Assembly: GCF_003610295.1 (NCBI RefSeq)
Contig: NZ_RAPV01000001.1
Coordinates: 5,890,001-5,954,000, forward strand
Length of the DNA: 64,000 nt
Source of the DNA: Paraburkholderia sp. BL23I1N1
GTDB taxonomy: Bacteria > Pseudomonadota > Gammaproteobacteria > Burkholderiales > Burkholderiaceae
Direction: 5' to 3'
Shown in pieces: positions 25,308 through 44,482 of this stretch. Below the pieces are notes generated by a model that had not been told where the DNA came from, searched no databases, and saw only the letters and a list, made by a program, of their open reading frames with translations. Each line of letters begins with the position of its first letter. Position 1 is the first letter of the stretch. The position numbers were made by a program, and so were the translations under genes.

Positions 25308-25318
25308 CGTGAGGCCCC

Positions 25319-26065: not shown

Positions 26066-26141
26066 CAAAGGCTCCTTGCTGCTTTATTGCGTTGCTTGCG
26101 CGTTTCGTTGCGCCTTATATGCGTCTTCGGTGCGCCTACGG

Positions 26142-29327: not shown

Positions 29328-30323
29328 TCAGCTTCCCTTCAATTGGGCAACCAGTGCGTCCGGAATCTCGACACCCTCTTTTTGCGCCGTGTCCGCAAGA
29401 CGCTCTCTTCTGTGGCCGGGAAGCCGAACGTCGTCGTCAGTCAGCATCATCCCGATCAGCGCTTCGACACGGGAAAGATAGGTTTCGTCGCCGGCCAGTG
29501 CGCCTGGATCGATGGCCCAGAACAGATGGCCGATGCGCGAACGCTCGCCTTCTTCGGTCAGGAACGAACCCGCTTCATAGCCGAAGTTCGCGCCGGTCAA
29601 CGCGGCTGCCAGCAGCTCGACAATCAGCGCGAGCATTGCTCCCTTGGCCCCGCCGAACGGCAGCATCATGCCGTCGAGGGCGGCACGGGCGTCGGTGGTC
29701 GGCTGACCGTCTCGGGTGGTCGCCCAGCCCTCGGGAATCGGTTTGCCGTCGCGCGCGGCGATCGCGATCTTGCCGCGCGCGATTTGCGAAAGCGCGAGGT
29801 CGATCACGAGCGACTCGCCGTTGCGCCGCGGGAACACGGCGGCAATCGGATTGGTGCCGAACAGCGCACGGCGGCCGCCCCAGGCGGGCATCGCCGCGGG
29901 CGAATTGCTGAAGACGAGCGCCACCATGCCCGCCGCGCCGAGCGCAGCCACATGCGCCGCGCCCACGCCAAAATGATGGCTGCGCTTCACGCCCGCCACC
30001 GCGCTGCCGAATTGCCGCGCGCGGTCGGTCAAGGTCGCCACCGCGAGATCGCAGGCGGGATAAGCCAGTCCGTCCGCACCGTCAATCAGCACGGCTGCGC
30101 CACGATCGGCCGCGATCACGGGCTGCGCCGCGGGATCGACACGGCCGTTGCGCAACTGCGCGCAATACATCGGCAGCCGCGATACCCCGTGCGAAGACAA
30201 TCCGCGCAGGTCGGCGTAGACGAGCGCGCGCGCGGTCGATTCGGCGGTAGCCCGCAGCGCGCCGGCCTGGCGCAGCGCGTCGATTGCAAGCGCGGTGAGC
30301 GCGTCGGGTAACAGTCGGGCCAT
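29328..30323 (-). CDS. comC: (R)-3-sulfolactate dehydrogenase-like Ldh-family oxidoreductase
   Basis: This 331-residue NAD(P)-dependent enzyme belongs to the malate/L-lactate/L-sulfolactate dehydrogenase family. Family marks are ADLRGLSSHGVSRLP with the catalytic histidine, GVKRSHHFGVGAAH, ALFGTNPIAAVFP and DGMMLPFGGAKGAM. In sulfolactate catabolism ComC reduces sulfopyruvate to the (R)-sulfolactate that SuyAB can cleave. Its place directly after slcC supports this role. The ATG at 30323 has AAGGA at good spacing; an upstream ATG at 30371 shares one base with the slcC stop and would add 16 residues of basic sequence. Confidence 0.82.
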   Translation of the reverse strand: MARLLPDALTALAIDALRQAGALRATAESTARALVYADLRGLSSHGVSRLPMYCAQLRNGRVDPAAQPVIAADRGAAVLIDGADGLAYPACDLAVATLTDRARQFGSAVAGVKRSHHFGVGAAHVAALGAAGMVALVFSNSPAAMPAWGGRRALFGTNPIAAVFPRRNGESLVIDLALSQIARGKIAIAARDGKPIPEGWATTRDGQPTTDARAALDGMMLPFGGAKGAMLALIVELLAAALTGANFGYEAGSFLTEEGERSRIGHLFWAIDPGALAGDETYLSRVEALIGMMLTDDDVRLPGHRRERLADTAQKEGVEIPDALVAQLKGS

Positions 30324-30370: not shown

Positions 30371-31300
30371 TCAGCCCGAAAGCGCCGCGGCGACCCGTTG
30401 CGCGACGAGCGAACTCACACGCTCATTCGATTGGACCGTCAGTCCGGCAATGTGGGGCGTGAGGATCAGGTTCGGGGTCTCTGCCAGCGGTGAGGCCTGC
30501 TTCAACGGTTCGTCGGCGAAGACATCGAGCGCGGCGCCCGCGAGCCGTTTCTCGCATAAAGCGGCCGCCAGCGCGTGCTCGTCTATCGTGCCACCCCGCG
30601 CCGTATTGATTACGATCGCGCCGCGCTTGAGGCGTGCAATGCGTTCGCTATCGAGCAGATTTCGCGTGCTATCGGTAAGCGGCACGTGCAGGGTGACGAC
30701 GTCGGCGAGCGCCAGCGCGTCATCCAGCGCCATGCAGCGCGCGCCGGTTTCGCGCCAACACGGCGCATCAGCGGCAAGCTGCGGATCGTGGCCGATAACC
30801 GTCATGCCGAGCCCGCCTGCAAGCCGCGCCACCCGTTGGCCGATGCCGCCGAAGCCGATCACCGCCAGCACACTACCCGCGGCCTCCCTTCCGTTCGACA
30901 ATGTCTGCCGCGGCCACTCGCCCGCTGCAACCTCGGCACTGCGCAGATAGGTCCCGCGCAACAGCATGAGTGCTGCGGTAACCACGTATTCCGCGACGGC
31001 CTGGGCGTTCGCGCCCGTGGCAGGCAACACCGCCACGCTGCGCTCGGCACAGGCGGGCATGTCGATATTATCGAGACCGACGCCCAGCCGCCCCACCGCG
31101 ATCAGATTCGCGGCGGCGTCGAGCAATGCCGCCGACACCTGCGTGCGGTTTCTCACGATCAGCGCGTGAGCATCCGCGAGTTCGGCCATCAGGCGCTCGG
31201 GACGGTCCACCAGCATGGGATCGAAGTGGACGTCAAAGTCTTGTCGTAGCGTGTCGACCGCAGCGTCGTCCATGAACTCGCTAATGACGATCTTCTTCAT
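30371..31300 (-). CDS. slcC: (S)-sulfolactate dehydrogenase (D-isomer-specific 2-hydroxyacid dehydrogenase family)
   Basis: This 309-residue enzyme should oxidise (S)-3-sulfolactate to 3-sulfopyruvate with NAD+. It opens with KKIVISEFMDDAAVDTL, has the nucleotide loop VIGFGGIGQRVA, and the catalytic set arginine (NTARGGTIDE), glutamate (DVFADEPL) and histidine (LTPHIAGLT). Together with ComC it epimerises sulfolactate by oxidation and reduction. The start overlaps the stop of the carrier gene (ATGA). Gene context with suyAB makes this more likely than a general phosphoglycerate or glyoxylate dehydrogenase. Confidence 0.85.
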   Translation of the reverse strand: MKKIVISEFMDDAAVDTLRQDFDVHFDPMLVDRPERLMAELADAHALIVRNRTQVSAALLDAAANLIAVGRLGVGLDNIDMPACAERSVAVLPATGANAQAVAEYVVTAALMLLRGTYLRSAEVAAGEWPRQTLSNGREAAGSVLAVIGFGGIGQRVARLAGGLGMTVIGHDPQLAADAPCWRETGARCMALDDALALADVVTLHVPLTDSTRNLLDSERIARLKRGAIVINTARGGTIDEHALAAALCEKRLAGAALDVFADEPLKQASPLAETPNLILTPHIAGLTVQSNERVSSLVAQRVAAALSG

Positions 31301-32652
31301 TTAGCCGCCTTTTCCAGCAGCGGATGAGCAGCGGGATGGCGTGTTTCTTCGAGACCGGGCCGGACCGTCGCCGGCTTGCCTTGAGATTGGGCTGGAGCTT
31401 GCGACTCGCGCAGCGCGGCGAGGAATTCGCGCGCGGCACGTGCATCGAATGCGCCTTCCCAACGCGCGACGACGAGCGTCGCCACCACATTGCCGATCAT
31501 ATTGGTGAGCGCGCGAACCTCGTTGAGCACCCGGTCGACGCCGAGAATCAGCGTGATCCCCGCGACCGGAATAATGTTGTGGGTGGACAGCGTCGCCGTC
31601 AGCGCAACCAGCGCCGCACCGGCCACGCCCGCACCGCCCTTCGAGGTCAGCATCAGGATCGCCAGCAGTCCGAGCTGCTGCACCAGCGATAGATGCGTGT
31701 TGGTGGCCTGCGCGATGAAGAGCGAGGTCATCGTGAGGTAGATCGCCGCGCCGTCGAGATTGAACGAATAGCCTGTAGGCAGCACGAGTCCGACAATCGC
31801 CTTCGGGCAACCCATGTGTTCGAGCTTCTCCATGAGGCGCGGCAGCACGGACTCCGTCGTCGAGGTGCCGAGCACGATCAGCAATTCCTCGCGGAAGTAC
31901 CTGAGCAGCGGCCAGAGCCCCACCCCTGCCCAGCGCGCCGCGGCGCCGAGCACGACGGCCACGAACAGAATACTGGTGATGTAGAAGCACAGAATCAGCA
32001 GGCCGAGTTGCTGCAAGGTGCCGATGCCGTATTTGCCGACCGTGAAGGCAATCGCCCCGAATGCGCCGAGCGGCGCGAGCCGCATGATCATCTCGACAAT
32101 GCGCATCAGGGTGTCGCCGAACTGCTCGATGCCGCGCATGAGCAGCCGGCTGCGTTGCGACATGATCGAGAGCGCAATGCCGAACAGCACTGAGAACAGC
32201 AGCACCTGTAGCAAATCGCCGCGCGCGAACGCACCCACCACCGAATTCGGCACGATCAGGTCGAAGAAACTTGATGACGCCGCGTGAGCGTCCGCGACGT
32301 AATGCGACATGGCATGCGCATCGAGCGTAGCGGGATCGATGTTCAGCCCCGCGCCGGGATGCAGCACGTTCGCCACGACAAGTCCGATCACGAGCGCGAT
32401 GGTGGTCACCACCTCGAAGTACAGCAGCGTCTTGAAGCCGACGCGGCCCACCTGTTTCAGGCTCTCCATTCGCGCAATGCCCACCGAGACCGTACAGAAG
32501 ATCACCAGTGTGATCAGCATCTTGATGAGACGGATGAAGGTGTCGCCGAGCGGTTTCATTTCGACGCCGAACGAAGGCGCGAGGTAACCGACGAGAATTC
32601 CGGCTGCAAGTCCGATCAGGACCTGCACGTAGAGATGTTTGAGCACGCGCAA
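31297..32652 (-). CDS. DctA-type dicarboxylate:cation symporter, probable sulfolactate carrier
   Basis: This 451-residue carrier belongs to the DAACS family, with GYLAPSFGVEMKPLGDTFIR near the N-terminus, a TSTTESVLPRLMEKL segment and PTGYSFNLDGAAIYLTM, the substrate and sodium site of DctA proteins. It starts with TTG at 32652, supported by a strong GGAGGAG eight bases upstream; DctA-like sequence (LYVQVLIGLAAGILVG) begins within a few residues. It overlaps slcC by 4 bp and follows suyB, so sulfolactate or a related C3-C4 acid is the likely substrate by context. C4-dicarboxylate uptake remains possible. Confidence 0.85.
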   Translation of the reverse strand: MRVLKHLYVQVLIGLAAGILVGYLAPSFGVEMKPLGDTFIRLIKMLITLVIFCTVSVGIARMESLKQVGRVGFKTLLYFEVVTTIALVIGLVVANVLHPGAGLNIDPATLDAHAMSHYVADAHAASSSFFDLIVPNSVVGAFARGDLLQVLLFSVLFGIALSIMSQRSRLLMRGIEQFGDTLMRIVEMIMRLAPLGAFGAIAFTVGKYGIGTLQQLGLLILCFYITSILFVAVVLGAAARWAGVGLWPLLRYFREELLIVLGTSTTESVLPRLMEKLEHMGCPKAIVGLVLPTGYSFNLDGAAIYLTMTSLFIAQATNTHLSLVQQLGLLAILMLTSKGGAGVAGAALVALTATLSTHNIIPVAGITLILGVDRVLNEVRALTNMIGNVVATLVVARWEGAFDARAAREFLAALRESQAPAQSQGKPATVRPGLEETRHPAAHPLLEKAAK

Positions 32653-32818: not shown

Positions 32819-33994
32819 TCAGGCGCTTTCGAACAGACGGGTCAGCACGAACTCGCGATGGCCGAGCGCTTCCGCCGACGTGAAACGGCCGTTTACCGTC
32901 GCCATCATGCATTCGAGCAGTTTGTCGCCGCTCTGGTCGAGATTCTGTTCGCGCTGCAGGATGCCGGTCACGTCGACGTCGATATGCTCGCCCATGGTGC
33001 GGACCGTACGCGGGTTCGCGCAGATCTTGATGACCGGCACGATCGGATTGCCAATCACGTTCCCCTGGCCCGTCGGGAAGAAGTGGACCACGAAGCCGGA
33101 CGCCGCGCACAACGTCACCATCTCTGCCGCCGCCGACGACGAGTCCATGAACCACAGGCCCGAGTGCGTCGGTTCCTCGGCTTTGTCGAGCACACCGTCC
33201 ACCATGCACTTCTTGCCGATCTTCTGGATATTGCCGAGCGCCTTTTCCTCGATGGTCGTCAGGCCGCCTGCGATATTGCCCTTGGTCGGCTGTGACTCCG
33301 AAAGATCGTCTGTTTTCCAGCGGTTGATCATCTCCTGATAGCGGTCGAACATGAACTGAAAACGCTCGCGCACGCCGTCGTTGGCGCAGCGCGCAGCAAC
33401 GATCTGTTCGCCGCCGGTAAGTTCCGAGGTTTCGCCGAACACGAGCGTGGTGCCAAGGCCATATAGTTTGTCGAACGCATTGCCGACCGTCGGATTAGCG
33501 CCGCATCCGGAGGTGGTATCCGACTCGCCACATTTGGTGGAGACCCAGAGATCAGAGATCGGACACTCCTCACGATCGAGCGACGTGGCGTACTGCACCA
33601 TTTCTTTCGCCGCCTTCGACGCACGCATGATGGTTTCGTGGTCGCCGTGCAGTTCGATGCCGAAGCCCATCACCGGCTTGCCGGTTTTCGCAATGCCGTC
33701 GACGACACGCTTGGTCCAGCCCTCCTCGATGCCGATCACGACCACGGCCGCGACGTTCGGATTGCTGCCCGCGCCGATCAGGGTACGGAAATGCAGGTCG
33801 AGGTCGGCGCCGAATTGCAACCGCCCGTACGGGTGCGGCAGCGCCATCGTACCCTTGATGTTGTTTTCAACGGCCTGCGCGGCAGCGTTCGACAGATCGT
33901 CGACCGGCAGAATGATCACGTGGTTGCGCACGCCAACGCGGCCATTGTCGCGACGATAGCCGCGGAAAGTCGTATCCAGATCAATCACGCTCAC
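32819..33994 (-). CDS. suyB: (2R)-sulfolactate sulfo-lyase large subunit (UxaA family)
   Basis: This 391-residue protein is the iron-dependent large subunit that cleaves (R)-3-sulfolactate to pyruvate and sulfite with SuyA. It resembles altronate and galactarate dehydratases: [20 protein letters not shown], the [20 protein letters not shown] cysteine region and [20 protein letters not shown]. The start is GTG at 33994 with GGGAGA upstream; the longer frame to 34294 is a shadow of suyA. A hexuronate dehydratase is the alternative, but there are no hexuronate genes here, and slcC, comC and soeABC follow. Confidence 0.88.
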
Positions 33995-34098: not shown

Positions 34099-34443
34099 TT
34101 ACCAGCGCTTCGTCTTGATGTTGTGCACGTGAGCGTGTTCGCCGGCGCTGATCGGCGCGACCACCTTGCCGATATCCACGCCGTACTTGAACACCGTGTC
34201 GCCGACTGCCATGTCCTTGAGCGCCACCTTGTGACCGATCGGAATATCCTGCCTGGCCGGGAACGTCACGATCTCGTCGTCGTCCATGATCCACGCGTTG
34301 AGTTGCGTGCCCGCCTTGATGCCCTCGACGACCGCCACGCCGACCGTGTCTTTCGCTTCGTGCAGCACGATGTGAATCGTCTGGCGTTCGGGCGTCGCGC
34401 CCTCAGCCGCGCTGCCGTTGATGTCTGCCGTGGGATTGCTCAT
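34099..34443 (-). CDS. suyA: (2R)-sulfolactate sulfo-lyase small subunit (SAF domain)
   Basis: This 114-residue protein is the small SAF/UxaA-N domain partner of Suy[21 protein letters not shown] and [29 protein letters not shown] form the conserved ending with the histidines that complete the active site. In altronate dehydratases the two parts are fused, but in SuyAB they are separate, as here. It is first in the minus-strand operon, followed after about 100 bp by suyB. The ATG at 34443 has CGGAG upstream. Confidence 0.9.
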
Positions 34444-35078: not shown

Positions 35079-36098
35079 ATGAACGTGAAGAGAGTGATTC
35101 GATCGATAGGCGTTGCCTGTGTGCTGTCCGGCATGCTTGCCGCCGGTTCCGCGCGGGCGGAACTCAGCGAGGTGAAAATCGCGCGGCAATACGGTGTCAG
35201 CTATCTGCCGCTGATGATCATGCAGGACCAGAAGCTTCTGGAAAAACACGCGGCGCAGATGGGCATCAAGGATCTGAAGGTTTCATGGGTCGAGTTTGCC
35301 GGCGGCAATGTGATGAACGATTCGCTGCTGTCCGACTCGTTGCAGATTGCCTCGGGCGGCGTGGCGCCGCTCGTGCTGCTGTGGTCGCGCACCAAGGGCA
35401 CGCCGGTCGAGGTCAAGGCGCTTTCCGCGATCAATTCAATGCCGCTGCTGCTCAACACGACCAACGCGAAAGTGAAGACGGTGAAAGACTTCACCGGTCA
35501 GGACAAGATCGCACTGCCCGCAGCCAAAGTGTCGATCCAGGCAATCACCTTGCAGATGGCCGCGGAAAAAGCGTTCGGCGCGGGCAATCAGGGGCAGCTT
35601 GATAAATACACCGTGTCGCTCGCCCACCCGGACGCGCAGCAGGCCATGATGTCCGGCAACAGCGAGGTCACCGCGCACTTCGGCTCGCCGCCGTTCCAGG
35701 AGCAGGAACTGCAAAAGCCGAATGTGCATACCGTGCTCAATTCGTATGACGTGCTTGGCGGCAAATCGAGTTTCAACCTTGTCTGGTGCACAACACGCTT
35801 CTATCAGGAGAATCCGAAGCTGACAAAAGCATTCATGGATGCATTAGACGAATCGGAAGCCTGGATCAATCATGACAAGCATGCGGCCGCCGTCGCCTAT
35901 CTGCGGATATCGAAGGAGAAGAGCACGGTCGACGAAGTGGAGAAGATGATTTCGACGCCGGATGTCTCGTTCACCACGGTGCCACAAAACACCATTAAAT
36001 ACGCGGACTTCATGGCGCGCGCCGGGCTGATCAAGGCCCGGCCGCAATCGTGGAAGGACCTGTTCTTCCCTACCGTTCAATCCCTTCAAGGAAGTTGA
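35079..36098 (+). CDS. Periplasmic substrate-binding protein of a taurine/sulfonate-type ABC transporter
   Basis: This 339-residue protein has a signal peptide ending SARAELS and the two-lobed binding fold of the SsuA/TauA/NMT1-like group (KIARQYGVSYLPLMIMQDQK, then SLLSDSLQIASGGVAPLVLL). It should capture a small organic anion in the periplasm and hand it to the permease at 36890. The ATG at 35079 precedes a clear signal peptide; the longer frame adds 19 unrelated residues. Taurine, sulfonate or nitrate cannot be told apart by sequence. Nearby sulfolactate genes favour a sulfonate, while the adjacent dehydrogenase-hydratase operon favours a dicarboxylate. Confidence 0.85.
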   Translation: MNVKRVIRSIGVACVLSGMLAAGSARAELSEVKIARQYGVSYLPLMIMQDQKLLEKHAAQMGIKDLKVSWVEFAGGNVMNDSLLSDSLQIASGGVAPLVLLWSRTKGTPVEVKALSAINSMPLLLNTTNAKVKTVKDFTGQDKIALPAAKVSIQAITLQMAAEKAFGAGNQGQLDKYTVSLAHPDAQQAMMSGNSEVTAHFGSPPFQEQELQKPNVHTVLNSYDVLGGKSSFNLVWCTTRFYQENPKLTKAFMDALDESEAWINHDKHAAAVAYLRISKEKSTVDEVEKMISTPDVSFTTVPQNTIKYADFMARAGLIKARPQSWKDLFFPTVQSLQGS

Positions 36099-36099
36099 C

Positions 36100-36897
36100 A
36101 TGCGCGCCGCGACTGAAGCCCCCCCTTATCCCGACACGTCGCCACTGCTCGCCGTGCGCGGCGTGACGCTGCAATACAAAACCCCGAAGACCCTTGTGAT
36201 GGCCACTTACCGCGTGGACTTCGAAGTATTCCGCGGCGATCGATTCGTCCTGCTGGGCCCGTCCGGCTGCGGCAAGTCGACTTTGCTCAAGAGCGTGGGC
36301 GGTTATCTCGCGCCGACCGAAGGCACGATTTCGCTGAAGGGCAAAGTCGTCACGCGCCCGGGCCCCGACCGCATGATGGTGTTCCAGGAATTCGACCAGT
36401 TGCTGCCGTGGAAAACGGTCAGGCAGAACGTGATGTTCGCGCTGCAGGCATCGCACCGGTTGCCCGCAAGCGAGATCGAAGATCGCGCGATGCATTACAT
36501 CGACAAGGTCAATCTCTCGTCGTTCGCCGACAGCTATCCGCATACGCTTTCGGGCGGCATGAAGCAGCGCGTCGCAATTGCGCGGGGCATGGCGATGGAG
36601 CCCGACATCCTGCTGATGGACGAGCCGTTCGCCGCGCTCGACGCGCTCACCCGCCGCAAGATGCAGGACGAACTTCTTGCGCTTTGGGACGAGACACACT
36701 TCACCGTGCTGTTCGTCACGCACTCGATTCCCGAAGCGATCAAGGTGGGCAGCCGGATTCTGCTGTTGTCGCCGCATCCCGGCCAGGTGAAGGCCGAACT
36801 GGAAACGGCGGCGACGCCGGAAGCCGCGATTGCGCTGGAAAAACGTATCCAGCACATGCTGTTCGAAGACGAGATCGAGAGGGCGGAAAATGTCTGA
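36100..36897 (+). CDS. ATP-binding subunit of the taurine/sulfonate-type ABC transporter
   Basis: This 265-residue ATPase powers the importer. Walker A is GPSGCGKST, the signature is LSGGMKQRVAIARGMA, and Walker B is ILLMDEPFAALDALTR, followed by the switch histidine in VLFVTHSIPEAI. The protein is of the SsuB/TauB/NrtD group. It starts 1 bp after the binding-protein stop and overlaps the permease start by 8 bp, so the three genes form one operon. Confidence 0.93.
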   Translation: MRAATEAPPYPDTSPLLAVRGVTLQYKTPKTLVMATYRVDFEVFRGDRFVLLGPSGCGKSTLLKSVGGYLAPTEGTISLKGKVVTRPGPDRMMVFQEFDQLLPWKTVRQNVMFALQASHRLPASEIEDRAMHYIDKVNLSSFADSYPHTLSGGMKQRVAIARGMAMEPDILLMDEPFAALDALTRRKMQDELLALWDETHFTVLFVTHSIPEAIKVGSRILLLSPHPGQVKAELETAATPEAAIALEKRIQHMLFEDEIERAENV

Positions 36898-37795
36898 CAT
36901 GCTTACCCACGGCGGCACCCATCATCGCAATGTCCCGCCGGTCGTACCGCGCTCCGAGGTGGTCCGCGAGCCATCCGAGACACGCGAGTTCAGCGTCGTC
37001 GAAAAACCTTTGTCGCCGTTCGAGCGGCTGTATAACCAGGCCTGGATCCGCAAGCTGGTCATTTTGCTGCTGCTAGCGGGCCTCTGGGAAATTTATGGCC
37101 GGGTGCTGAACAACCCGCTGCTGTTTCCGACGTTCAGCGCAACCATCGAAGCATTCTTCAAAAGCATTGCGAGCGGCGAATTGCCAGGCAAGGCATGGGC
37201 GTCGATCCATGTGCTGCTGATCGGCTATGCGTTCGGGATCATACTCGCCGCCCTGCTCACGGCTGCGGCGATCACCTCGCGCATCGGCACCGATTTTCTG
37301 GAAACGATGACCTCCATGCTCAATCCGCTGCCCGCCATCGCGCTCCTGCCGCTCGCGCTGATCTGGTTCGGCCTCGGCAACGGCAGCCTGATCTTCGTTC
37401 TGGTGCATTCGGTCACGTGGTCGGTGGCGCTTAATACGCACTCGGGGTTTTTGTCGGTCAGCAATACGCTAAAGATGGTCGGGCGCAACTACGGTCTGCG
37501 CGGCGGCCGCTACGTGCTGCAGATTCTCGTGCCGGCGGCGTTCCCAAGCATCCTCACCGGGCTGAAAATCGGCTGGGCTTTTGCGTGGCGCACGCTGATC
37601 GCCGCCGAGCTGGTATTCGGCGTAAGTTCCGGTTCGGGCGGCCTCGGCTGGTTCATCTACGAGAACAAGAATCTGCTCGACATCGCCAACGTGTTTGCCG
37701 GTCTGTTCACGGTGATCCTGATCGGGCTCGCCGTCGAGAATCTGATCTTCCGCGTGCTGGAACGTCATACGGTGCAGCGCTGGGGCATGCAGTAA
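36890..37795 (+). CDS. Permease subunit of the taurine/sulfonate-type ABC transporter
   Basis: This 301-residue membrane protein has about six hydrophobic segments and the BPD-transporter EAA-like loop near its C-terminal third (GRNYGLRGGRYVLQILVPAA followed by FPSILTGLKIGWAFAWR). It belongs to the SsuC/TauC permease group. A polar N-terminal extension of about 45 residues, including HGGTHHRN, precedes the first membrane span. The ATG at 36890 lies within the 3' end of the ATPase gene, which indicates coupling. Confidence 0.9.
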   Translation: MSDMLTHGGTHHRNVPPVVPRSEVVREPSETREFSVVEKPLSPFERLYNQAWIRKLVILLLLAGLWEIYGRVLNNPLLFPTFSATIEAFFKSIASGELPGKAWASIHVLLIGYAFGIILAALLTAAAITSRIGTDFLETMTSMLNPLPAIALLPLALIWFGLGNGSLIFVLVHSVTWSVALNTHSGFLSVSNTLKMVGRNYGLRGGRYVLQILVPAAFPSILTGLKIGWAFAWRTLIAAELVFGVSSGSGGLGWFIYENKNLLDIANVFAGLFTVILIGLAVENLIFRVLERHTVQRWGMQ

Positions 37796-37811: not shown

Positions 37812-38738
37812 GTGAGCGCGATTCGTTATTTCGTGACGTTTCTCTCGGTGGCGCGGCACGGCTCGTTCGCCGCCGCCGCTGAAGAGGTGTGTCTCACGCA
37901 GGCCGCGGTCGGCTTGCAGATGCGTTCGCTCGAACGCGATCTCGACCTCGTGCTGTTCGATCGCGCCGCCCGTTCGGTGTCGCTCAGTGCGCAGGGGCGT
38001 GCGGTGCTGCCGCTCGCGGAAACGCTGGTGGCCACCTACCGGCAGATTCTCGCCACGGGCGACGCCGGCGAGCTATCCGGCACCGTGCGCGTCGGCGCCC
38101 TCGTTTCCTCGCTGATGGGCGCGTTCGCCGACGCGATGCTCAACCTCAAGCAGCGCTATCCGCGTCTGGATCTGAAGCTGTTTACGGGGCTGTCGAGCGA
38201 CTTTGCGGCGCGTGTGGAGAGCGGCGAACTCGATGCCGCGATCGTCACGCAATCACCGTCGACGCTGCCGGCCGCCCTCAAATGGACCGTGCTGTATAGC
38301 GAGCCGATGGTGTTCATTTCATCCACGAGCGGTCAGCCCGCGTCGATCGAAGCCTTGCTTGAAGAGCCGTTTATCCGTTTCGACCGTCATACCTGGACCG
38401 GCGTGCTCGTCGACAACGCGCTTCGCCAGCTAGGCCAGGCCCACAGCGAAATCATGGAGCTGAATTCGATCGAGGCCATTTCGGAAATGGTGCGGCGCGG
38501 CTTTGGCGTGTCCATCGTGCCGCTTCTCGCTAACGCGAACTGGACGCGTGAGACGGGCCTGCAGGTCACGCCGCTGCCCGAGCGCATCACGCCGCGCCGG
38601 GTCGGTCTGCTGGAGCGGCGCGATCACCCACGCAAAGCATTCACGGATTCCGTGAAGCGTCATTTCATCGACACCGCCGAACTTTCTTCTTCGATCAGCG
38701 ATTCGCCCGGGCGCACTCGCGTGAACTCAACCGGTTGA
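37812..38738 (+). CDS. LysR-family transcriptional regulator
   Basis: This 308-residue regulator has an N-terminal winged helix (FVTFLSVARHGSFAAAAEEV, CLTQAAVGLQMRSLERDL, LFDRAARSVSLSAQG) and a periplasmic-binding-protein-like effector domain. It starts with GTG 17 bp after the permease stop and is probably co-transcribed with the transporter, so it may sense the imported compound. Its 3' end overlaps the convergent flavoprotein gene by 79 bp. It could act at the ATGACCT/AGGTCAT sites upstream of suyA and the transporter; this is untested. Confidence 0.9.
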   Translation: MSAIRYFVTFLSVARHGSFAAAAEEVCLTQAAVGLQMRSLERDLDLVLFDRAARSVSLSAQGRAVLPLAETLVATYRQILATGDAGELSGTVRVGALVSSLMGAFADAMLNLKQRYPRLDLKLFTGLSSDFAARVESGELDAAIVTQSPSTLPAALKWTVLYSEPMVFISSTSGQPASIEALLEEPFIRFDRHTWTGVLVDNALRQLGQAHSEIMELNSIEAISEMVRRGFGVSIVPLLANANWTRETGLQVTPLPERITPRRVGLLERRDHPRKAFTDSVKRHFIDTAELSSSISDSPGRTRVNSTG

Positions 38739-40396
38739 CGGCTTGCCGCGAAGTCGTCGCCTTCGAGGCGCAGGCACATGTACTCGGATGTCTCCAGATC
38801 GCCCGAATCCGGAAAGTCCTCGCGATAGTGCGCGCCGCGTGAATTCTCCCTTAGCAGCGCCGATTCCGTGATCGCGCGGCTCACGAGGATCAGATTGCGC
38901 AGGTTCATCCAGTCGTGCCAGGAAAGATTGAAGCGCAAGTCGCGGCCGTCGATGCCGGTCACGTCGAGCTCTGCGTCCAGCTCCACGAGCCGGCGCCTCG
39001 CGCGCTCGAGCCCTACTGCGTCGCGCAGAATGCCGACATCGTTCCACATGACTTCGGCGAGCGCGTCACGGATCGCTTCGAGATTGCCGGGCGGCTGGCG
39101 CAACGGGCGCGTGCAGCGGGCCATCGCCGCGTTGATCGCGTCCGTATCGAAGTCGGCGAATTGGCCGTGGCGCGGCACCCAGGCCGCCAGCGTGTCGCCC
39201 GCAATCCCGCCGAACACCGTCGAATTCGCCACGCCGTTGCCGCCCAACCGGTTTGCGCCGTGCACGCCGCCGGCATCTTCTCCCGCTACGAACAGGCCCG
39301 GCAGCGAGGTGGCGCAGTTCGCGTCGAAGACCACGCCGCCCATCATGTAGTGCGCGGTCGGCACGACTTCGACAAGACCGCCCGCGAGATCGAAGCCGCA
39401 GTCGGTGCATCGCTCGGCCATCCCCTTGAAGCGCTTGCGCACACTCTCGGCGCCGAGATGATGCATCTGCAGATAGACGCCGCCATTGGGCGTCGCGTGT
39501 CCGGCGCGCAATTCGCGGAAGATACTGCGCGAGACGACGTCGCGCGTCGCCCGTTCGGCGCGCGGGTCGTAAGCCTGCATGAAACGCTCGCCCGCGCCGG
39601 TAAGCAGATAGCCGCCCGCCCCGCGCAGCCCCTCTTCGAGCACCGTGCCGGTCATGCGCGTATCGGCGCCGGCCAGCAGTCCGGTCGGATGAAACTGCAC
39701 CATCTCCATGTCGCGCAGCGTGAGCCCGGCGCGCAAGGCCATCGCCATGCCGTCGCAGCTCTTGTCGCCGCTCGGCGTGTGATAGCGGTACATCGTCGGG
39801 CCGCCGCCGGTCGCGAGCAGCACGGCCTGGGTGCGCACGAACACGAACTCGCCGCTACGCATGTCGATCATCAGCACGCCGGCGAGCGATTCGCCGTCGC
39901 GGCTGCGGATGAACTCGACCGCGCGATGCTCTTCCAACCGGTCGATACCGCGTGCCCACACCTGCTCCGCCAGCCGGTTGATGATCTCGATGCCGGTCTG
40001 GTCGCCCTTATGCACGGTGCGGTCGAAGGTCTGGCCGGCGAATGCTTTCTGCCGCACGGAGCCGTCCGGATTGCGGTCGAAGAAACAACCCAGTTCGTTT
40101 TCCAGTTCGCGAATCCGTTCGACGGCGCCCGTCACCAGCATCCACGCCAGGTCCTGATTCGAAAGCCATTTACCGCCTTCGATCGTGTCCATGAAGTGCC
40201 GCTCAATCGAATCGCCCGGCGCGAGCGCGACGTTGTAGCCGCCCTGCACCATGCGCGTACAGCCGCATTTGCCGAGCAGCCCCTTCACGGCCACCGTGAT
40301 GCGCAATTGCGGCGCGACCGCCTGGGCATGCAGCGCAGCGAACAGGCCGGCGCCGCCACTGCCCAGAATGAGAATGTCGGTATCGATCTGTTTCAT
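38660..40396 (-). CDS. FAD flavoprotein subunit, succinate dehydrogenase/fumarate reductase-like
   Basis: This 578-residue flavoprotein should oxidise a succinate-like acid or reduce a fumarate-like acid. The FAD loop is LILGSGGAGLFAAL. Dicarboxylate-binding and catalytic motifs are present: QFHPTGLLAG, RATRDVVSR, PTAHYMMGG and HGANRLGGNG. The histidine that covalently attaches FAD in SdhA/FrdA (the SHT before QGG) is replaced: the region reads CGCTRMVQGG. FAD is thus probably not covalently bound, as in aspartate oxidase. It is the last gene of an operon with its iron-sulfur and cytochrome b partners and a class I fumarase-like pair. The ATG at 40396 gives the normal N-terminus. Confidence 0.88.
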   Translation of the reverse strand: MKQIDTDILILGSGGAGLFAALHAQAVAPQLRITVAVKGLLGKCGCTRMVQGGYNVALAPGDSIERHFMDTIEGGKWLSNQDLAWMLVTGAVERIRELENELGCFFDRNPDGSVRQKAFAGQTFDRTVHKGDQTGIEIINRLAEQVWARGIDRLEEHRAVEFIRSRDGESLAGVLMIDMRSGEFVFVRTQAVLLATGGGPTMYRYHTPSGDKSCDGMAMALRAGLTLRDMEMVQFHPTGLLAGADTRMTGTVLEEGLRGAGGYLLTGAGERFMQAYDPRAERATRDVVSRSIFRELRAGHATPNGGVYLQMHHLGAESVRKRFKGMAERCTDCGFDLAGGLVEVVPTAHYMMGGVVFDANCATSLPGLFVAGEDAGGVHGANRLGGNGVANSTVFGGIAGDTLAAWVPRHGQFADFDTDAINAAMARCTRPLRQPPGNLEAIRDALAEVMWNDVGILRDAVGLERARRRLVELDAELDVTGIDGRDLRFNLSWHDWMNLRNLILVSRAITESALLRENSRGAHYREDFPDSGDLETSEYMCLRLEGDDFAASRQPVEFTRVRPGESLIEEESSAVSMK

Positions 40397-40418
40397 GGGG
40401 TCGCGTTCCGGATGTTTT

Positions 40419-41054
40419 TCACACGCGAATACCGAGCGACGCGAGCACCGCATCGCGCTGCGTCCGTGTGTTCTGTTGGACTGCCGTGTAGAGGCTGCCG
40501 CCGTGACTGTCCATGGCGACCAGCAAGGGGCCGAAGCCGCGAATCCGGAAGCGCCAGAGCGATTCAGGATTGAGATCGTCGAGATCCACGTCTTCGATCT
40601 GTTCGATCCACGTGGTTTCCAGCGCCGCCGTGCCGCCGACGATCGCAAGGTACACGCCACCGAATTCCACGAACGCGCCACTCGACGCCGCGCCGAGGCC
40701 ACCCTTGCCGATGACCGCCCGCACGCCATAGGTCCGCATCAAGGGCGCGGTAAAGCGCTCCATGCGCGCGGACGTCGTCGTGCCGATGCAAACGGGTTCA
40801 TAACCTGCGGGATGTTCCGGCGACACGTCCACACGCCGCACATTCGGCGCAGTGTGAATCACCGCGTGGCCGCGCAAATCGAATCGCGTGGTGCGCCCGT
40901 GATCGAACATCTGGATCTGAGTGGCGTCGCGAATACCGAACAGTGTGTCGTTGAGCGTCACCGTATCGCCGATGCGCAACGCGCGGATCTGAGCTTCGCT
41001 CGCCGGCATGCCGAGCACGGAATGCGTGCCGGTGGCAGGCTTCTCAGTAGCCAT
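40419..41054 (-). CDS. Class I fumarase/tartrate dehydratase-like beta subunit
   Basis: This 211-residue protein is the C-terminal (beta) half of an iron-sulfur hydratase of the fumarase A/L-tartrate dehydratase type. Key segments are IRALRIGDTVTLNDTLFGIR, GTTTSARMERFTAPLMRTYG and VRAVIGKGGLG. It overlaps the alpha gene by 11 bp. Split alpha and beta subunits are typical of tartrate dehydratase, archaeal-type fumarases and some mesaconases. Its presence in an operon with a dehydrogenase of the succinate type points to hydration of the dehydrogenation product. Confidence 0.85.
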   Translation of the reverse strand: MATEKPATGTHSVLGMPASEAQIRALRIGDTVTLNDTLFGIRDATQIQMFDHGRTTRFDLRGHAVIHTAPNVRRVDVSPEHPAGYEPVCIGTTTSARMERFTAPLMRTYGVRAVIGKGGLGAASSGAFVEFGGVYLAIVGGTAALETTWIEQIEDVDLDDLNPESLWRFRIRGFGPLLVAMDSHGGSLYTAVQQNTRTQRDAVLASLGIRV

Positions 41055-41949
41055 ATTCGACTCCCCGCACGTTCACGGTCGCACGCGAGCGCCGCGCCGA
41101 ATGACACTGCATGTTCACGGCGACCGGATTCATCGTGATGTGGGTGGCGGCCAGTTCGACGTGCACCGCAAACGCGGTCGCGTCGCCGCCCAGTCCTTGA
41201 GGCCCGACGCCCAGTTGATTGACCGCCGCCGATAACTGCTGCTCGAGCGCCGCGCCGTGTTCATCGCGGCAGTCGGTGCCGAGCGGCCGGGTGGCCGCCC
41301 GTTTCGCCAGCGCCACGCAAAGATCCGAGGTGCCGCCGATGCCCACGCCGACAATCGTCGGCGGACAGGTCTTGCCGCCTGCGTCCACCACGCAGTCGAT
41401 CACGAAGCGCCGGATGGCATCCACACCTTCGGCCGGAATCGCCATGCGCAAAAACGAGTTGTTCTCCGAACCGCTGCCCTTCGGAATCATCTCGATCGAC
41501 AGCGCGCCCGGCGTAGCATCGAAATCGACGTGGATCACCGGCACTTCCGCGCCACAGGAGTTTTGCTCGTTATGGCGCGTGAGCGGATGAACCACCGAGG
41601 AGCGCAGCGGATGCTCATGCGTGGCGCGGGCGCAACCGCTACGAATCGCGGCCTTCAGGCGCATGCCATCGAACCGCACGCCCTGACCGATCGTGATCGT
41701 GTAGATCGGCAGGCCGGTGTCCTGGCAAAGCAGATTGTCGTCCTGCTCGGCCACCACAATGTTCTGCCGCATCGTGCCGAGCACGCGCCGGGCGGTTTCG
41801 TTACGCTCATCGGCTTCGAGCTTCGCGATGCCTGCCTTGATATCCAGCGGAAGCTGCTTGAGTGCACGGATATACAGCGTCTTTGCGATCTCTTCGACTA
41901 ACGCGTAGTCGACCGTGAAATCCGTTGTGAATCTCGTTGTGGTTTGCAT
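41044..41949 (-). CDS. Class I fumarase/tartrate dehydratase-like alpha subunit
   Basis: This 301-residue protein is the cluster-binding half of the hydratase. Three cysteines in LLCQDTGLPIY, NSCGAEVPVIHVD and GGKTCPPTIVGVGIGG are at the positions that hold the 4Fe-4S cluster in class I fumarases and tartrate dehydratases. The ATG at 41949 has GAAGAGG upstream. It follows the cytochrome b-like subunits in the same operon. Fumarate, mesaconate, tartrate or another unsaturated dicarboxylate could be the substrate. Confidence 0.88.
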   Translation of the reverse strand: MQTTTRFTTDFTVDYALVEEIAKTLYIRALKQLPLDIKAGIAKLEADERNETARRVLGTMRQNIVVAEQDDNLLCQDTGLPIYTITIGQGVRFDGMRLKAAIRSGCARATHEHPLRSSVVHPLTRHNEQNSCGAEVPVIHVDFDATPGALSIEMIPKGSGSENNSFLRMAIPAEGVDAIRRFVIDCVVDAGGKTCPPTIVGVGIGGTSDLCVALAKRAATRPLGTDCRDEHGAALEQQLSAAVNQLGVGPQGLGGDATAFAVHVELAATHITMNPVAVNMQCHSARRSRATVNVRGVEYGY

Positions 41950-41973
41950 TGAAGCCTCTTCGAACAAGCTCGC

Positions 41974-42369
41974 TCACAGAGTCAGCGAAAGCGCAAACGC
42001 CATACCGATGACCAACGCGCCGCCCGCGGTCAGCGCGATCAGATCCTTGCGCAAACCGCTCCACGGCCGGAACTCGATCAGCAGCAGCCGCACCCCGCCG
42101 ATCAGATGCGCCGCGAGCAGCGTGACCAGCCCCCACTCCGCGAAAACGAATAGCGGCGCACGCGTAACGGTCAGAAACGATTCGAAAGGCGCCGCGCCGT
42201 GGAGCGCCGTGCCGAGCGCCCAGAAATGCGCGGGTAAAAAGAAGGCCAGCGCGAGACCGGATAGCCGATGAACCAGGAAGGCCCACCATGCGGGATGATT
42301 ACGCGCGCGGAAGTCGAGCTTGCGGCCGGGCGTGACCGCGCGTGCGGACGTGCGCGCGTGGGTGCTCAT
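41974..42369 (-). CDS. Succinate dehydrogenase/fumarate reductase membrane anchor, SdhC-like
   Basis: This 131-residue membrane protein has three hydrophobic segments and SdhC-like marks: WWAFLVHRLSGLALAFFLPA at the first span and AAHLIGGVRLLLIEF with a probable heme-ligand histidine at the second. It should form part of the quinone site that links the dehydrogenase to the respiratory chain. The ATG at 42369 overlaps the preceding anchor gene by 4 bp. Confidence 0.82.
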   Translation of the reverse strand: MSTHARTSARAVTPGRKLDFRARNHPAWWAFLVHRLSGLALAFFLPAHFWALGTALHGAAPFESFLTVTRAPLFVFAEWGLVTLLAAHLIGGVRLLLIEFRPWSGLRKDLIALTAGGALVIGMAFALSLTL

Positions 42370-42710
42370 GCCGGCGCTCCCGCAATCAGCGCGTAGACCG
42401 CGCGCAGACCCGCCAGCGCCAGCGCAACGCCCACGAGCATACTGGCGCGCGCCGCCCACACGCCACGCCAATTCAGCCACTCGTCGGCGATACGGCGCAA
42501 GCCCACCGGCACGTGCATTGCCGCGGCGATCACGAAGACCGCGTAGAACAAACCCCAGACGACGTTTCCGTGCAGACGCGCAATGACATCCGCCGCACGC
42601 AGACCGCCATGCACGACCCAGATCATGGTTGCCAGATGCACGGCGACGCAGAGCGTCAGCACCATGGCGGACAGGCGCTGCAGCCACCAGCCGTCGAGGC
42701 TTCGATTCAT
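42366..42710 (-). CDS. Succinate dehydrogenase/fumarate reductase membrane anchor, small cytochrome b subunit
   Basis: This 114-residue protein has three membrane segments (LSAMVLTLCVAVHLATMIWV, VVWGLFYAVFVIAAAMHVPVGL and a third near the C-terminus) with histidines placed as possible heme ligands. It is the partner of the SdhC-like subunit and completes the two-anchor architecture. It overlaps the iron-sulfur gene before it and the other anchor after it by 4 bp each. Confidence 0.8.
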   Translation of the reverse strand: MNRSLDGWWLQRLSAMVLTLCVAVHLATMIWVVHGGLRAADVIARLHGNVVWGLFYAVFVIAAAMHVPVGLRRIADEWLNWRGVWAARASMLVGVALALAGLRAVYALIAGAPA

Positions 42711-43435
42711 CGCGCGCCTCCCTTGAAGCGTCCCACACGCTTGAGGCCGGCGATGCTGGCGGTCGGCGCAAGCGCCTTCGGACAGCGCTCGGTGCACGAG
42801 CCCAAGGTGTGACAGGCGTGGCAGCCCGCGTCGGTCGCAACTGCCTCGTGGCGAGCGGCCTGTTGAATGTCGCGGCTATCGTTGACGAGCGTCCATGCGC
42901 GGTTGAGCGCGGCCGGTCCGAGATAGTCCGGCTTCCATCCGACCACGTCGCAACTCGCATAGCACACGCCGCAGCCGATGCACTCGATGCCCGCATCGGC
43001 CGCCCGCCGTTCGGGCGACGCCGGATCGATTCGTTCGAGTGGAGCGTTGCGGTCACGGTTGCCGGCGAAAAAGCCCTTGGCGTCGCGCCATTTGTCGAAG
43101 AACTGCGTCATGTCGACCGCAAGATCCTTGACGATCGGCAGATGATTCAGCGGCGCGATTTCCAGCACGTCGCGCGGATGCCGCAGCACCTTCGCTACGT
43201 GCGTGCGACAGGTCCAGCGCGCACGGCCGTTGACGGTCATCGCGCAGGAGCCGCACATCCCGACCCGGCACGCGAACCGGTAGGACAACGTGGCGTCGAT
43301 GCTGCGCTGAATATGCGTGACGACATCCAGCACGGTCTGACTGGCGCGGCGCGGAACCTCGAATGATTCGAACGCGCCGTCTTCGGCGCCGCGCCACACG
43401 CGCACGCTCAGCAAGTCGCTGACAGGAGGTTGCAT
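42707..43435 (-). CDS. Iron-sulfur subunit, succinate dehydrogenase/fumarate reductase-like
   Basis: This 242-residue protein carries the three clusters of SdhB/FrdB: CRVGMCGSC with a later WTC for the 2Fe-2S cluster, CIGCGVCYASC for the 4Fe-4S cluster, and CHTLGSCTERCPKAL completing the 4Fe-4S and 3Fe-4S sites. It passes electrons from the flavoprotein to the membrane anchors. It is first in the operon. I use the ATG at 43435; a TTG seven codons earlier is possible, and neither has a strong Shine-Dalgarno. This is an accessory set, since a housekeeping sdhCDAB would be expected elsewhere. Confidence 0.88.
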   Translation of the reverse strand: MQPPVSDLLSVRVWRGAEDGAFESFEVPRRASQTVLDVVTHIQRSIDATLSYRFACRVGMCGSCAMTVNGRARWTCRTHVAKVLRHPRDVLEIAPLNHLPIVKDLAVDMTQFFDKWRDAKGFFAGNRDRNAPLERIDPASPERRAADAGIECIGCGVCYASCDVVGWKPDYLGPAALNRAWTLVNDSRDIQQAARHEAVATDAGCHACHTLGSCTERCPKALAPTASIAGLKRVGRFKGGAR

Positions 43436-43627
43436 AGGGATAGTTGAATGGCCCAATTATTCTGCTGGAAGATACCGGCTGACCATCAGACTAGAGCCCG
43501 GCGCGGCCGCCTGAAAAGCCAATAATTCTTCGCTCGAGGACAAGTGTTTCTTGCGCATGCGCAGCGCGAAAGAAGGCCGGGTTTCACGGGTATAAACCCT
43601 TGTAGCGAGTCGCCTACAAAACCTATC

Positions 43628-43648
43628 TCATCTAGATGTGCTAGATGA
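43628..43648. promoter_or_regulatory. Perfect inverted repeat TCATCTAG-N5-CTAGATGA, candidate GntR operator
   Basis: Two perfect 8-bp arms with a 5-bp spacer lie between the divergent iron-sulfur gene (start 43435) and the GntR gene (start 43724), 76 bp before the latter. GntR/HutC-type regulators bind such palindromes and usually control their own gene and the divergent operon. A related half-site, CTTAGATGA, occurs near 34566 by the suyA palindrome. Confidence 0.6.
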
Positions 43649-43723: not shown

Positions 43724-44482
43724 ATGAGCACGCTCGCCTTCAATCCGCCCGCGCTGGGCGGCACGCGGTACAAGGAAGTCAAGAGCGCGATTCTGGCCGC
43801 GCTTTCGGCGGGCGAATGGAAAGGCGGCGAATGCATTCCTTCGGAGAAGCGGCTGGCCGAGCGGTTCGGCGTATCCATCGGCACGCTGCGCAAGGCCATC
43901 GACGAACTCTGTGCCGAGAACATTCTGACCCGTCATCAGGGTCTCGGGACCTTCGTGTCCATGCATCAGCACGACCGGCATTTTTTCCGTTTTTTTCGCA
44001 TTGTCCGGCGCGATGGCGACAAGGTATATCCGGTTGTCACGTTGATCGATTTTAAAAAAGCGCGGGCATCCCGCGAGGTGGCGGCAACGCTCGGCATCGA
44101 AACCGGCGCACGCGTGTTCCAGTTCGTCAACGGCCTGGCGCTGCATGGCAAGACGGTCCTGATCGAACACATCACGGTGCCGGACACCCATTTTCCTGGC
44201 CTCACCGAGGCGAAACTGCGCAACCGGCCCAATACGCTCTACAACTTTTACCAGGATGTGTTCGGCATCAACGTGGTTGAAACCGACGAACGTGTGAGCG
44301 TCGCCTTGGCGAACGAACTGGAAAGCAGCCTGTTGGGCGTGAAGGTCGGTGAACCCTTGCTGGAGATCCGGCGGATCGCCTATTCGTATCATCGCAACGC
44401 CGTCGAACTGCGCGTTTCGCGGCTGAACACCGAAGAGTACGAGTACATCGGGGCCCGCCCAGGCCGCGAAGAACAGCGGTAG
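43724..44482 (+). CDS. GntR-family regulator with UTRA effector domain (HutC subgroup)
   Basis: This 252-residue regulator has a winged helix at residues 10-80 (EVKSAILAALSAGEWKGGEC, PSEKRLAERFGVSIGTLRKA) and a UTRA ligand domain (VLIEHITVPDTHFPG, LLEIRRIAYSYHRNAVELRV). Such proteins respond to small metabolites and mostly repress. It is divergent from the dehydrogenase-hydratase operon and follows a perfect palindrome, so it probably controls that operon and itself. The ATG at 43724 follows AGGGG. Confidence 0.9.
   Translation: MSTLAFNPPALGGTRYKEVKSAILAALSAGEWKGGECIPSEKRLAERFGVSIGTLRKAIDELCAENILTRHQGLGTFVSMHQHDRHFFRFFRIVRRDGDKVYPVVTLIDFKKARASREVAATLGIETGARVFQFVNGLALHGKTVLIEHITVPDTHFPGLTEAKLRNRPNTLYNFYQDVFGINVVETDERVSVALANELESSLLGVKVGEPLLEIRRIAYSYHRNAVELRVSRLNTEEYEYIGARPGREEQR

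Follow-up and report, generated by a model that had tools for sequence, protein, structure and literature searches.

Introduction

The hpsRNOUPsuyAB cluster of Cupriavidus pinatubonensis has been described together with the reactions of SuyAB and SlcC/ComC (PMC11382572), and cleavage of sulfolactate by recombinant SuyAB has been reported (PMC6278857). 3-Sulfopropionate is formed by Enterococcus gilvus from sulfoquinovose or 2,3-dihydroxypropane-1-sulfonate (DHPS) and by a Burkholderia sp. and Cupriavidus necator from homotaurine (PMC11489063; PMC12890257); GabT/GabD can also convert homotaurine to 3-sulfopropanoate (PMC5320631). Bilophila can use 3-sulfopropionate as an electron acceptor (PMC11489063), by a route still called unclear in 2026 (PMC12890257). 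As to degradation by bacteria, a 2024 paper describes it as previously unreported save for a Konstanz thesis, in which Roseovarius nubinhibens degrades homotaurine via 3-sulfopropionate, sulfoacrylate, and sulfolactate (PMC11489063). The literature searched consists mainly of titles and abstract openings, with the thesis itself outside it, and within these limits no gene assignment for 3-sulfopropionate oxidation or sulfoacrylate hydration was found. Here, we analyze a six-gene cassette, sdhB-sdhD-sdhC-fumA-fumB-sdhA, in a window of 64,000 bp from the 9.12 Mb genome of Paraburkholderia sp. BL23I1N1 (G000:C1:5890001-5954000; genomes and loci are denoted below by G and L numbers), and propose that it encodes the first two steps of such a degradation route.

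The cassette is probably a sulfonate-isostere copy of a segment of the tricarboxylic acid (TCA) cycle, and its enzymes look like members of known superfamilies with new functions. In the proposed pathway, a neighboring ATP-binding cassette (ABC) transporter, perhaps along with the symporter DctA, would import 3-sulfopropionate, the isostere of succinate in which sulfonate takes the place of one carboxylate. An SdhABCD-like complex in the membrane would oxidize it to (E)-3-sulfoacrylate, the isostere of fumarate, with transfer of electrons to quinone, and the two-subunit iron-sulfur hydratase FumAB would add water to yield 3-sulfolactate, the isostere of malate. SlcC and ComC would then convert the two enantiomers of sulfolactate into each other via 3-sulfopyruvate, the isostere of oxaloacetate. 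Cleavage of (R)-sulfolactate by SuyAB would yield pyruvate and sulfite, the latter being oxidized to sulfate by SoeABC. We are highly confident that the substrate is some organosulfonate; that it is 3-sulfopropionate, degraded through sulfoacrylate and sulfolactate, appears probable on the genomic evidence. Predicted from sequence are the substrate, both new reactions, the roles assigned to SoeABC and the transporter, and the stereochemistry.

Gene content of the cassette

What was observed directly is which genes are present, how far they are conserved and co-occur, and which residues are changed. The six genes are located on the minus strand between positions 43435 and 38660, with neighboring open reading frames (ORFs) overlapping or separated by at most 25 bases:

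42707..43435, minus strand: SdhB-like iron-sulfur subunit, 242 amino acids (Fer2_3 and Fer4; TIGR00384, 194.1 bits against a cut-off of 88)
42366..42710, minus strand: SdhD-like membrane anchor, 114 amino acids (PF01127, 31.3 bits against a cut-off of 25.8)
41974..42369, minus strand: SdhC-like membrane anchor, 131 amino acids (TIGR02970, 54.6 bits against a cut-off of 52.3; PF01127, Sdh_cyt)
41044..41949, minus strand: FumA, alpha subunit of a type A class I fumarase-like hydratase, proposed 3-sulfoacrylate hydratase (PF05681, Fumerase)
40419..41054, minus strand: FumB, beta subunit of the type A hydratase (PF05683, Fumerase_C)
38660..40396, minus strand: SdhA-like flavoprotein, proposed quinone-linked 3-sulfopropionate dehydrogenase (PF00890, FAD_binding_2; PF02910, Succ_DH_flav_C)

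All six ORFs of the first-pass annotation of this window were found where it had placed them, with domains confirmed by Pfam and NCBIfam, and the complex II subunits are complete (flavoprotein, iron-sulfur subunit, and two membrane anchors). The tight operon order that it noted is not due to chance, as the same type of hydratase is adjacent to sdhA in 65 of 103 loci with related SdhA proteins. FumA exceeds the cut-off of the fumarate hydratase model NF004885 (294.6 vs. 276 bits). FumB exceeds that of none of the eight NCBIfam models matched, the TtdB and fumarase equivalogs included, and SdhA that of none of the 25 models listed out of 30 matched (best TfrA, 511.4 vs. 718 bits). Residue alignment revealed the subfamily motif ITMNPVAVNMQCHSAR in the class I hydratase of the cassette.

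The cassette is not the sole or housekeeping succinate dehydrogenase (SDH) of the genome, because a second sdh set (G000:C1:3548046-3550492), FumC, and a fused class I fumarase are encoded elsewhere; the first-pass annotation had named the lack of any other sdh or fumarase as the finding that would speak against it. The second SdhA-like gene (3548046), whose product is 35% identical to the cassette SdhA, is accompanied by two Sdh_cyt genes (3549799 and 3550154). FumC (780.1 bits, above the cut-off) is encoded at 886370 and the fused fumarase at 3229356. Another flavoprotein, again 35% identical to the cassette SdhA, was read as NadB.

These data bear on an explanation without any sulfonate, i.e., that the cassette acts on another substituted succinate (methylsuccinate/mesaconate, itaconate, or tartrate) or is a duplicate succinate/fumarate system. 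The match of FumA to NF004885 fits it, and class I fumarases acting on mesaconate are known. It is opposed by the separate housekeeping SDH and fumarases, by the altered carboxylate site of SdhA described below, and by the recurrence of sulfite-releasing and sulfite-handling neighbors in distant hosts (fewer in S190 and P. seriniphilus). Methylsuccinate and mesaconate, initially suggested as candidates for this locus, were rejected on this gene context, and we regard the explanation as a whole as the least probable of those considered.

Distribution and types of hydratases

The SdhA family (approximately 49–96% identical to the window copy) is paired with two types of class I hydratases, whose FumA subunits are only 33–36% alike. 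Type A, found in the window, has the gene order sdhBDC-fumAB-sdhA, and type B the order sdhBDC-sdhA-fumAB. Type B cassettes were read in Paracoccus, Sulfitobacter, Methylobacterium nodulans, NT-25/NT-26, Pseudomonas MPC6, and Cupriavidus. Not counting the window, the 103 SdhA loci comprise 65 of type A (including RHA1, L114, at 48% to its best query), 21 of type B, two archaeal ones with a gene of the argininosuccinate lyase family, and 15 with no hydratase alpha gene in view, mostly on short contigs (exceptions L059, L060, and L080). In L059 and L080, a TauE gene lies between SdhBDC and SdhA.

Among the matches listed for 144 genomes of the same genus, FumA orthologs (at least 68% identity) are present in 25, the next matches being at most 37% identical; the cassette is hence accessory. 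All 25 of these genomes contain suyB, compared to 16 of the 119 others (Fisher p = 1.6e-17, not corrected for kinship). Orthologs of suyB were defined by at least 92% identity, leaving out distant UxaA proteins of 35–43%, and occur in 41 genomes in total; G069 was scored as positive on two partial pieces. FumA and suyB are on the same contig in 22 of the 25 cassette genomes, 7.9–14.0 kb apart.

Cassettes were found in Beta-, Alpha-, and Gammaproteobacteria. The 80 named SdhA loci are the best 80 of 588 candidate places, a sample leaning to close relatives, among which the closest are Paraburkholderia loci L003 and L004. In 50 genomes picked by hand from these loci, mostly longer ones, suyB was found genome-wide in 45 (42 of 45 among type A). 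In several loci, e.g., L009, L017, L021, and L082, suyAB immediately precedes the sdh and fum genes in the same orientation. Across 398 genomes sampled evenly over the phylum, suyB was found in 17, the cassette SdhA (E value of at most 1e-150) in 11, and both in five, so that 12 of 387 genomes without the cassette have suyB; one of the 17 suyB genes is a 34% match and one a fragment at a contig end.

Eleven cassette genomes without suyB were searched for Xsc and ComE, which constitute the other sulfolactate route: L033, L043, and L063 (type A), L055, G190, G326, G351, G481, G530, and G532 (type B), and L080 (no hydratase in view). Both enzymes scored above the cut-off in nine of the 11, and neither was found in L055 and L063; in L033 and L043, the Xsc gene is located about 3–4 kb beyond sdhA on the opposite strand. 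Of four suyB-positive genomes (G000, G286, G398, and G423), three have Xsc and none has ComE above the cut-off. A known sulfolactate-consuming route is thus present in 13 of the 15 genomes searched, although Xsc may be there for taurine.

Neighboring genes in cassette loci

Neighbors were counted within 15 kb of sdhA in 51 type A loci (14 of the 65 were dropped for having less than 12 kb of flank) and in all 21 type B loci; the cut-offs were set after the loci had been inspected, and some loci are closely related (NT-25 to NT-26; two from Cupriavidus). The counts for types A and B, respectively, are 28/51 and 0/21 for suyB, 32/51 and 1/21 for comC, 28/51 and 1/21 for GntR, 20/51 and 13/21 for the TauE family, 4/51 and 6/21 for YeiH, 5/51 and 3/21 for SorA (above the model cut-off in L083), and 3/51 and 1/21 for SoxC. 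At least one of suyB, a sulfite exporter (TauE or YeiH), and a sulfite dehydrogenase (SorA or SoxC) is in view in 40/51 type A, 15/21 type B, and 2/2 archaeal loci, and in 5/15 loci without a hydratase. HpsN-like genes are in view in three of the 51 type A loci. The suyB gene of Paracoccus versutus (L084, type B) lies about 23 kb from the cassette, near an HpsN-like gene.

The difference between the types is relevant to an explanation in which water is added at the sulfonated carbon and the resulting unstable alpha-hydroxysulfonate breaks down to sulfite and malonate semialdehyde, with suyAB a bystander. For type B, this agrees with the lack of suyB within 15 kb and with the presence of MmsA, a CoA-acylating malonate/methylmalonate-semialdehyde dehydrogenase, near four of the 21 loci as opposed to none of the 51 type A loci (p = 0.006); its gene directly follows fumAB in Pseudomonas MPC6 (695.3 vs. 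448.5 bits) and is near the cassette in L109, L112, and L113. For type A, however, MmsA is missing from all 51 loci and suyB is present in every cassette genome of the genus. Moreover, Xsc and ComE are present in all six type B genomes of the phylum sample that lack suyB, so these may pass through sulfolactate as well, which weakens the lack of suyB as proof of direct desulfonation. We consider this explanation very improbable.

A broader reading, less likely than not, is that prokaryotes have a sulfonate counterpart of the succinate–fumarate–malate segment, with a single quinone-linked 3-sulfopropionate dehydrogenase paired with type A hydratases (yielding sulfolactate, then SuyAB), with type B hydratases (yielding, in part of their range, sulfite and malonate semialdehyde for MmsA), and perhaps with a haloarchaeal enzyme of the lyase superfamily. 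If true, the type B hydratase, adding water at the sulfonated carbon with release of sulfite, would represent a new kind of C–S bond cleavage. The two haloarchaeal loci (L098 and L099) are on plasmids and have, next to SdhA-SdhB, TauE, the gene of the argininosuccinate lyase family, and a UxaA pair. This lyase was not labeled a hydratase, since it passes the ordinary ArgH model (323.3 vs. 279.5 bits; the XcbC coenzyme M model gives 260.4, below 575) and may simply be ArgH; the UxaA pair, only 36% identical to the window SuyB, was not labeled SuyAB.

Two further features were seen in type B loci. An Amidohydro_2 gene follows fumAB in five of the 21 (L086:12321-13160; L109, L111, L112, and L113) and in none of the 51 type A loci. 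On the NT-25 and NT-26 plasmids (L087 and L115), typed as conjugative, the type B cassette is beside conjugation genes, and such plasmids may move it between hosts.

A thiamine pyrophosphate (TPP, ThDP) enzyme recurs with the cassette in 23/51 type A and 4/21 type B loci (e.g., L083:14946-16571), and in Polaromonas (L006:3493-4833) a class III aminotransferase gene, possibly for a homotaurine-type step, is located just upstream of the LysR gene of the cassette. Both enzymes suggest that some hosts have an oxo-acid branch upstream, and they are consistent with another sulfonated succinate-like acid entering the same route, e.g., one derived from homocysteate or a sulfopropionate bearing a substituent. 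Among the TPP enzymes, two members have no listed match above its cut-off. Among the neighbors identified in the window, no TPP enzyme or aminotransferase gene is beside the cassette, and we give this explanation a low probability.

Residue changes in SdhA and conserved residues in FumAB

Residues of SdhA were compared in 85 relatives, namely the 80 named loci and five plasmid loci, with archaeal and later-found ones left out. The segment GK(C/S/T)GCT without histidine is present in all 85, whereas the genome's own SDH has a histidine there, which we take to be the residue that covalently links flavin adenine dinucleotide (FAD) in SDH. All 85 have Glu254 directly before a conserved Glu, in place of Thr259 of the housekeeping SDH, presumably equivalent to Thr254 of E. 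coli. An insertion, T-R-x-T, is located ahead of Glu254 (T246 in 84/85, R247 in 84/85, and T249 in 85/85), and H236, E255, R285, H349, and R383 are invariant among the 85. Judged by SDH structures, one carboxylate site (H349, R383, and R285) would be intact and the other, with Thr replaced by Glu, altered. On sequence grounds, a single altered site better fits a substrate with one carboxylate replaced by sulfonate than sulfosuccinate, which would retain both carboxylates.

In the hydratases (types A and B, own copy included), C75, D77, R116, C195, H270, and C282 of FumA are kept in 67–68 of 68 rows and T93, R97, and K117 of FumB in 77 of 77. We assume C75, C195, and C282 to be the iron-sulfur cysteines and the others to be catalytic.

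Genes around the cassette in the window

The ABC transporter (here of the SsuABC/NMT1 type), LysR and GntR regulators, 2-hydroxyacid dehydrogenase, and sulfolactate-type genes named as neighbors in the first-pass annotation are all present. The surroundings of the cassette include the following genes:

43724..44482, plus strand: GntR/UTRA regulator, upstream of and divergent from sdhB (PF07702 and PF00392)
37812..38738, plus strand: LysR-family regulator, downstream and convergent, its 3' end overlapping the end of sdhA (PF00126 and PF03466)
36890..37795, plus strand: ABC transporter permease (PF00528; profile search on the longer ORF 36830-37795)
36100..36897, plus strand: ABC transporter ATPase (PF00005)
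35121..36098, plus strand: ABC substrate-binding protein of the SsuA/NMT1 type (PF13379 above the cut-off; TIGR01728, 86.9 bits, below the cut-off of 163.5)
34099..34443, minus strand: SuyA-like small subunit of sulfolactate sulfo-lyase, directly 5' of suyB, as in the suyAB cluster of C. pinatubonensis
32819..33994, minus strand: SuyB, catalytic subunit of sulfolactate sulfo-lyase (PF20629 and PF04295)
31297..32646, minus strand: DctA-type dicarboxylate symporter (NF002461, 587.2 bits against a cut-off of 513)
30371..31300, minus strand: SlcC-like D-2-hydroxyacid dehydrogenase, named from its context beside suyAB and comC (PF02826)
29328..30323, minus strand: ComC-like Ldh_2 dehydrogenase, tentatively so named (best NCBIfam match NF040650, L-sulfolactate dehydrogenase)
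26142..29063, minus strand: SoeA-like molybdopterin subunit of a proposed sulfite dehydrogenase (PF00384, PF04879, and PF01568)
25319..26065, minus strand: SoeB-like 4Fe-4S subunit (PF13247)
24357..25289, minus strand: SoeC-like membrane anchor (PF04976, DmsC, 60.1 bits against a cut-off of 22.3)

SuyB is 87.2% identical over 391 amino acids to a UxaA protein in an hpsNO island of C. pinatubonensis. The window thus has both components, a large subunit of the UxaA family that closely resembles a known SuyB and a gene for a small partner, whose product has no Pfam match and weakly resembles the N-terminal part of galactarate dehydratase. The SlcC- and ComC-like proteins belong to the expected families, but the latter scores 218.2 bits with NF040650, below the cut-off of 500; the position of the SlcC- and ComC-like genes is that of known clusters, suyAB beside slcC and comC being described for a sulfolactate island in the literature searched.

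The genes for the molybdopterin, 4Fe-4S, and DmsC-type subunits (24357-29063, minus strand) directly follow comC, and all three subunit types expected of SoeABC are present. The trio is likely the sulfite dehydrogenase SoeABC, a name that none of the listed profile matches bears. Relatives of the ABC ATPase, approximately 70–99% identical, are encoded close to the cassette at several other loci. The 2-hydroxyacid dehydrogenase (44566-45498), to which the first-pass annotation had given a pathway step, was seen beside the cassette in no compared locus other than L003 and L004, the two closest relatives; it was dropped as a core enzyme and is probably not part of the core pathway.

Relatives of the GntR regulator adjoin suyA in L005, L017, and L018, whereas in the window the gene adjoins sdhB. 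The sdhB–GntR intergenic region contains two candidate operators, a perfect inverted repeat TTGTAG-N8-CTACAA and an element CATCTAGATGTGCTAGATG, at 43600-43619 and 43629-43647; neither has a second copy within the window. The repeat pattern is not rare by chance, as 33 of 100 shuffles matched it with at most two mismatches. An operator shared by the upstream regions of sdhB and suyA was dropped, as the two regions have no 9-mer in common. Further along the minus strand, 18012-19865 and 22169-23647 encode a heavy-metal P-type ATPase and an HflK-like protein.

Evaluation of the proposed pathway

The logic of dehydrogenation followed by hydration, put forward in the first-pass annotation, agrees with the gene content and the sulfolactate context, and its link between a sulfonated acid and the adjoining sulfolactate genes is borne out by the co-occurrence with suyB and by the sulfite-handling neighbors. 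The sulfonate part of its sulfonated C4 acid thus stands; the C4 part is only possible, 3-sulfopropionate, a C3 acid, being the better fit. The C3 substrate is favored because the dehydrogenase and the hydratase alone would take 3-sulfopropionate to sulfolactate, with the neighbors doing the rest, and because a single carboxylate site is altered and genes of the malonate- or succinate-semialdehyde dehydrogenase type, joined on the NT-25 and NT-26 plasmids by a sulfolactaldehyde-reductase-like gene, are beside a few relatives.

Sulfosuccinate is the main competing substrate. The SDH-like complex would convert it to sulfofumarate and the hydratase would form 3-sulfomalate, which the ComC-like or the 2-hydroxyacid dehydrogenase would oxidize to 3-sulfo-oxaloacetate; loss of CO2 would give 3-sulfopyruvate, which enters the sulfolactate route. 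The recurrent company of suyAB, slcC, and comC is the same for this route, the window encodes three dehydrogenases, and binding proteins of the tripartite-tricarboxylate type are found in 28 of the 51 type A loci. However, it requires a further oxidation as well as a decarboxylation, SdhA has kept one of the canonical carboxylate sites and has the other altered, and the occurrence of malonate-semialdehyde dehydrogenase close to some cassettes of type B is left unexplained; in the literature searched, no paper naming both “sulfosuccinate” and “sulfolactate” was found. We consider sulfosuccinate unlikely, though the strongest of the alternatives.

Several observations weigh against 3-sulfopropionate or against the sulfolactate route. 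Firstly, Glu254 places a negative charge at a site expected to bind an anion, which is odd, although the conserved Arg may offset it. Secondly, a suyB gene adjoining the cassette could serve other sulfonates, and 11 of the 51 type A loci have none of suyB, TauE, YeiH, SorA, and SoxC in view. Neither suyB nor Xsc was found genome-wide in L055 (type B) and L063 (type A, Pseudomonas sp. Q2-TVG4-2), and the argument from Xsc and ComE is weakened by the fact that Xsc is also a taurine enzyme, common for that purpose in Rhodobacteraceae. Thirdly, the MmsA evidence comes from the other hydratase type, with two of the four loci in Cupriavidus, and MmsA has further roles in the degradation of valine and inositol. 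The NT-25 plasmid carries a gene of the succinate-semialdehyde dehydrogenase family (GabD type, 690.7 vs. 646.35 bits) and the sulfolactaldehyde-reductase-like gene, in a layout identical to that in NT-26, but the reductase of NT-25 scores just below the cut-off (324.3 vs. 348 bits), and GabD- and SlaR-type neighbors are rare (2/21 type B loci each; 1/51 and 2/51 type A loci, respectively).

Comparison with known systems

Relative to the literature searched, the gene set appears to be new, and the chemical route is foreshadowed by the Konstanz thesis. As far as the sources covered go, the genes described in E. gilvus (HpfXYZ) and for homotaurine use in C. necator make 3-sulfopropionate, with no breakdown gene named there, and the thesis route of R. 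nubinhibens matches the steps proposed here. A named gene set for 3-sulfopropionate breakdown would fill in a missing part of the organosulfur cycle, illustrate how a TCA-cycle module can be redirected to a sulfonate, and correct the labels fumarate hydratase, succinate dehydrogenase, and FAD-binding protein that the cassette genes bear in public records.

With respiratory succinate dehydrogenase (complex II) and L-aspartate oxidase, the cassette shares the four-subunit layout, the FAD and iron-sulfur domains, the catalytic Arg, and one carboxylate site. Its SdhA, equally distant from the genome's own SDH and the protein read as NadB (35% identity to each), differs in lacking the FAD-linking His and in having the Thr-to-Glu change and the inserted T-R-x-T. 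FumAB has the iron-sulfur cysteines and catalytic residues of two-subunit class I fumarases and L(+)-tartrate dehydratase; it differs in that FumB is below the equivalog cut-offs, in the subfamily motif, and in that its genes lie within an sdh operon adjoining a sulfonate island. Finally, the suyAB, slcC-, and comC-like genes adjoining the cassette resemble those of the SuyAB/SlcC/ComC mineralization systems of Paracoccus, Chromohalobacter, and C. pinatubonensis. In the sources covered, the inputs of those systems are DHPS, sulfolactate, cysteate, and sulfosugars, whereas in Paraburkholderia sp. BL23I1N1 sulfolactate appears to be fed by a dehydrogenase and a hydratase.

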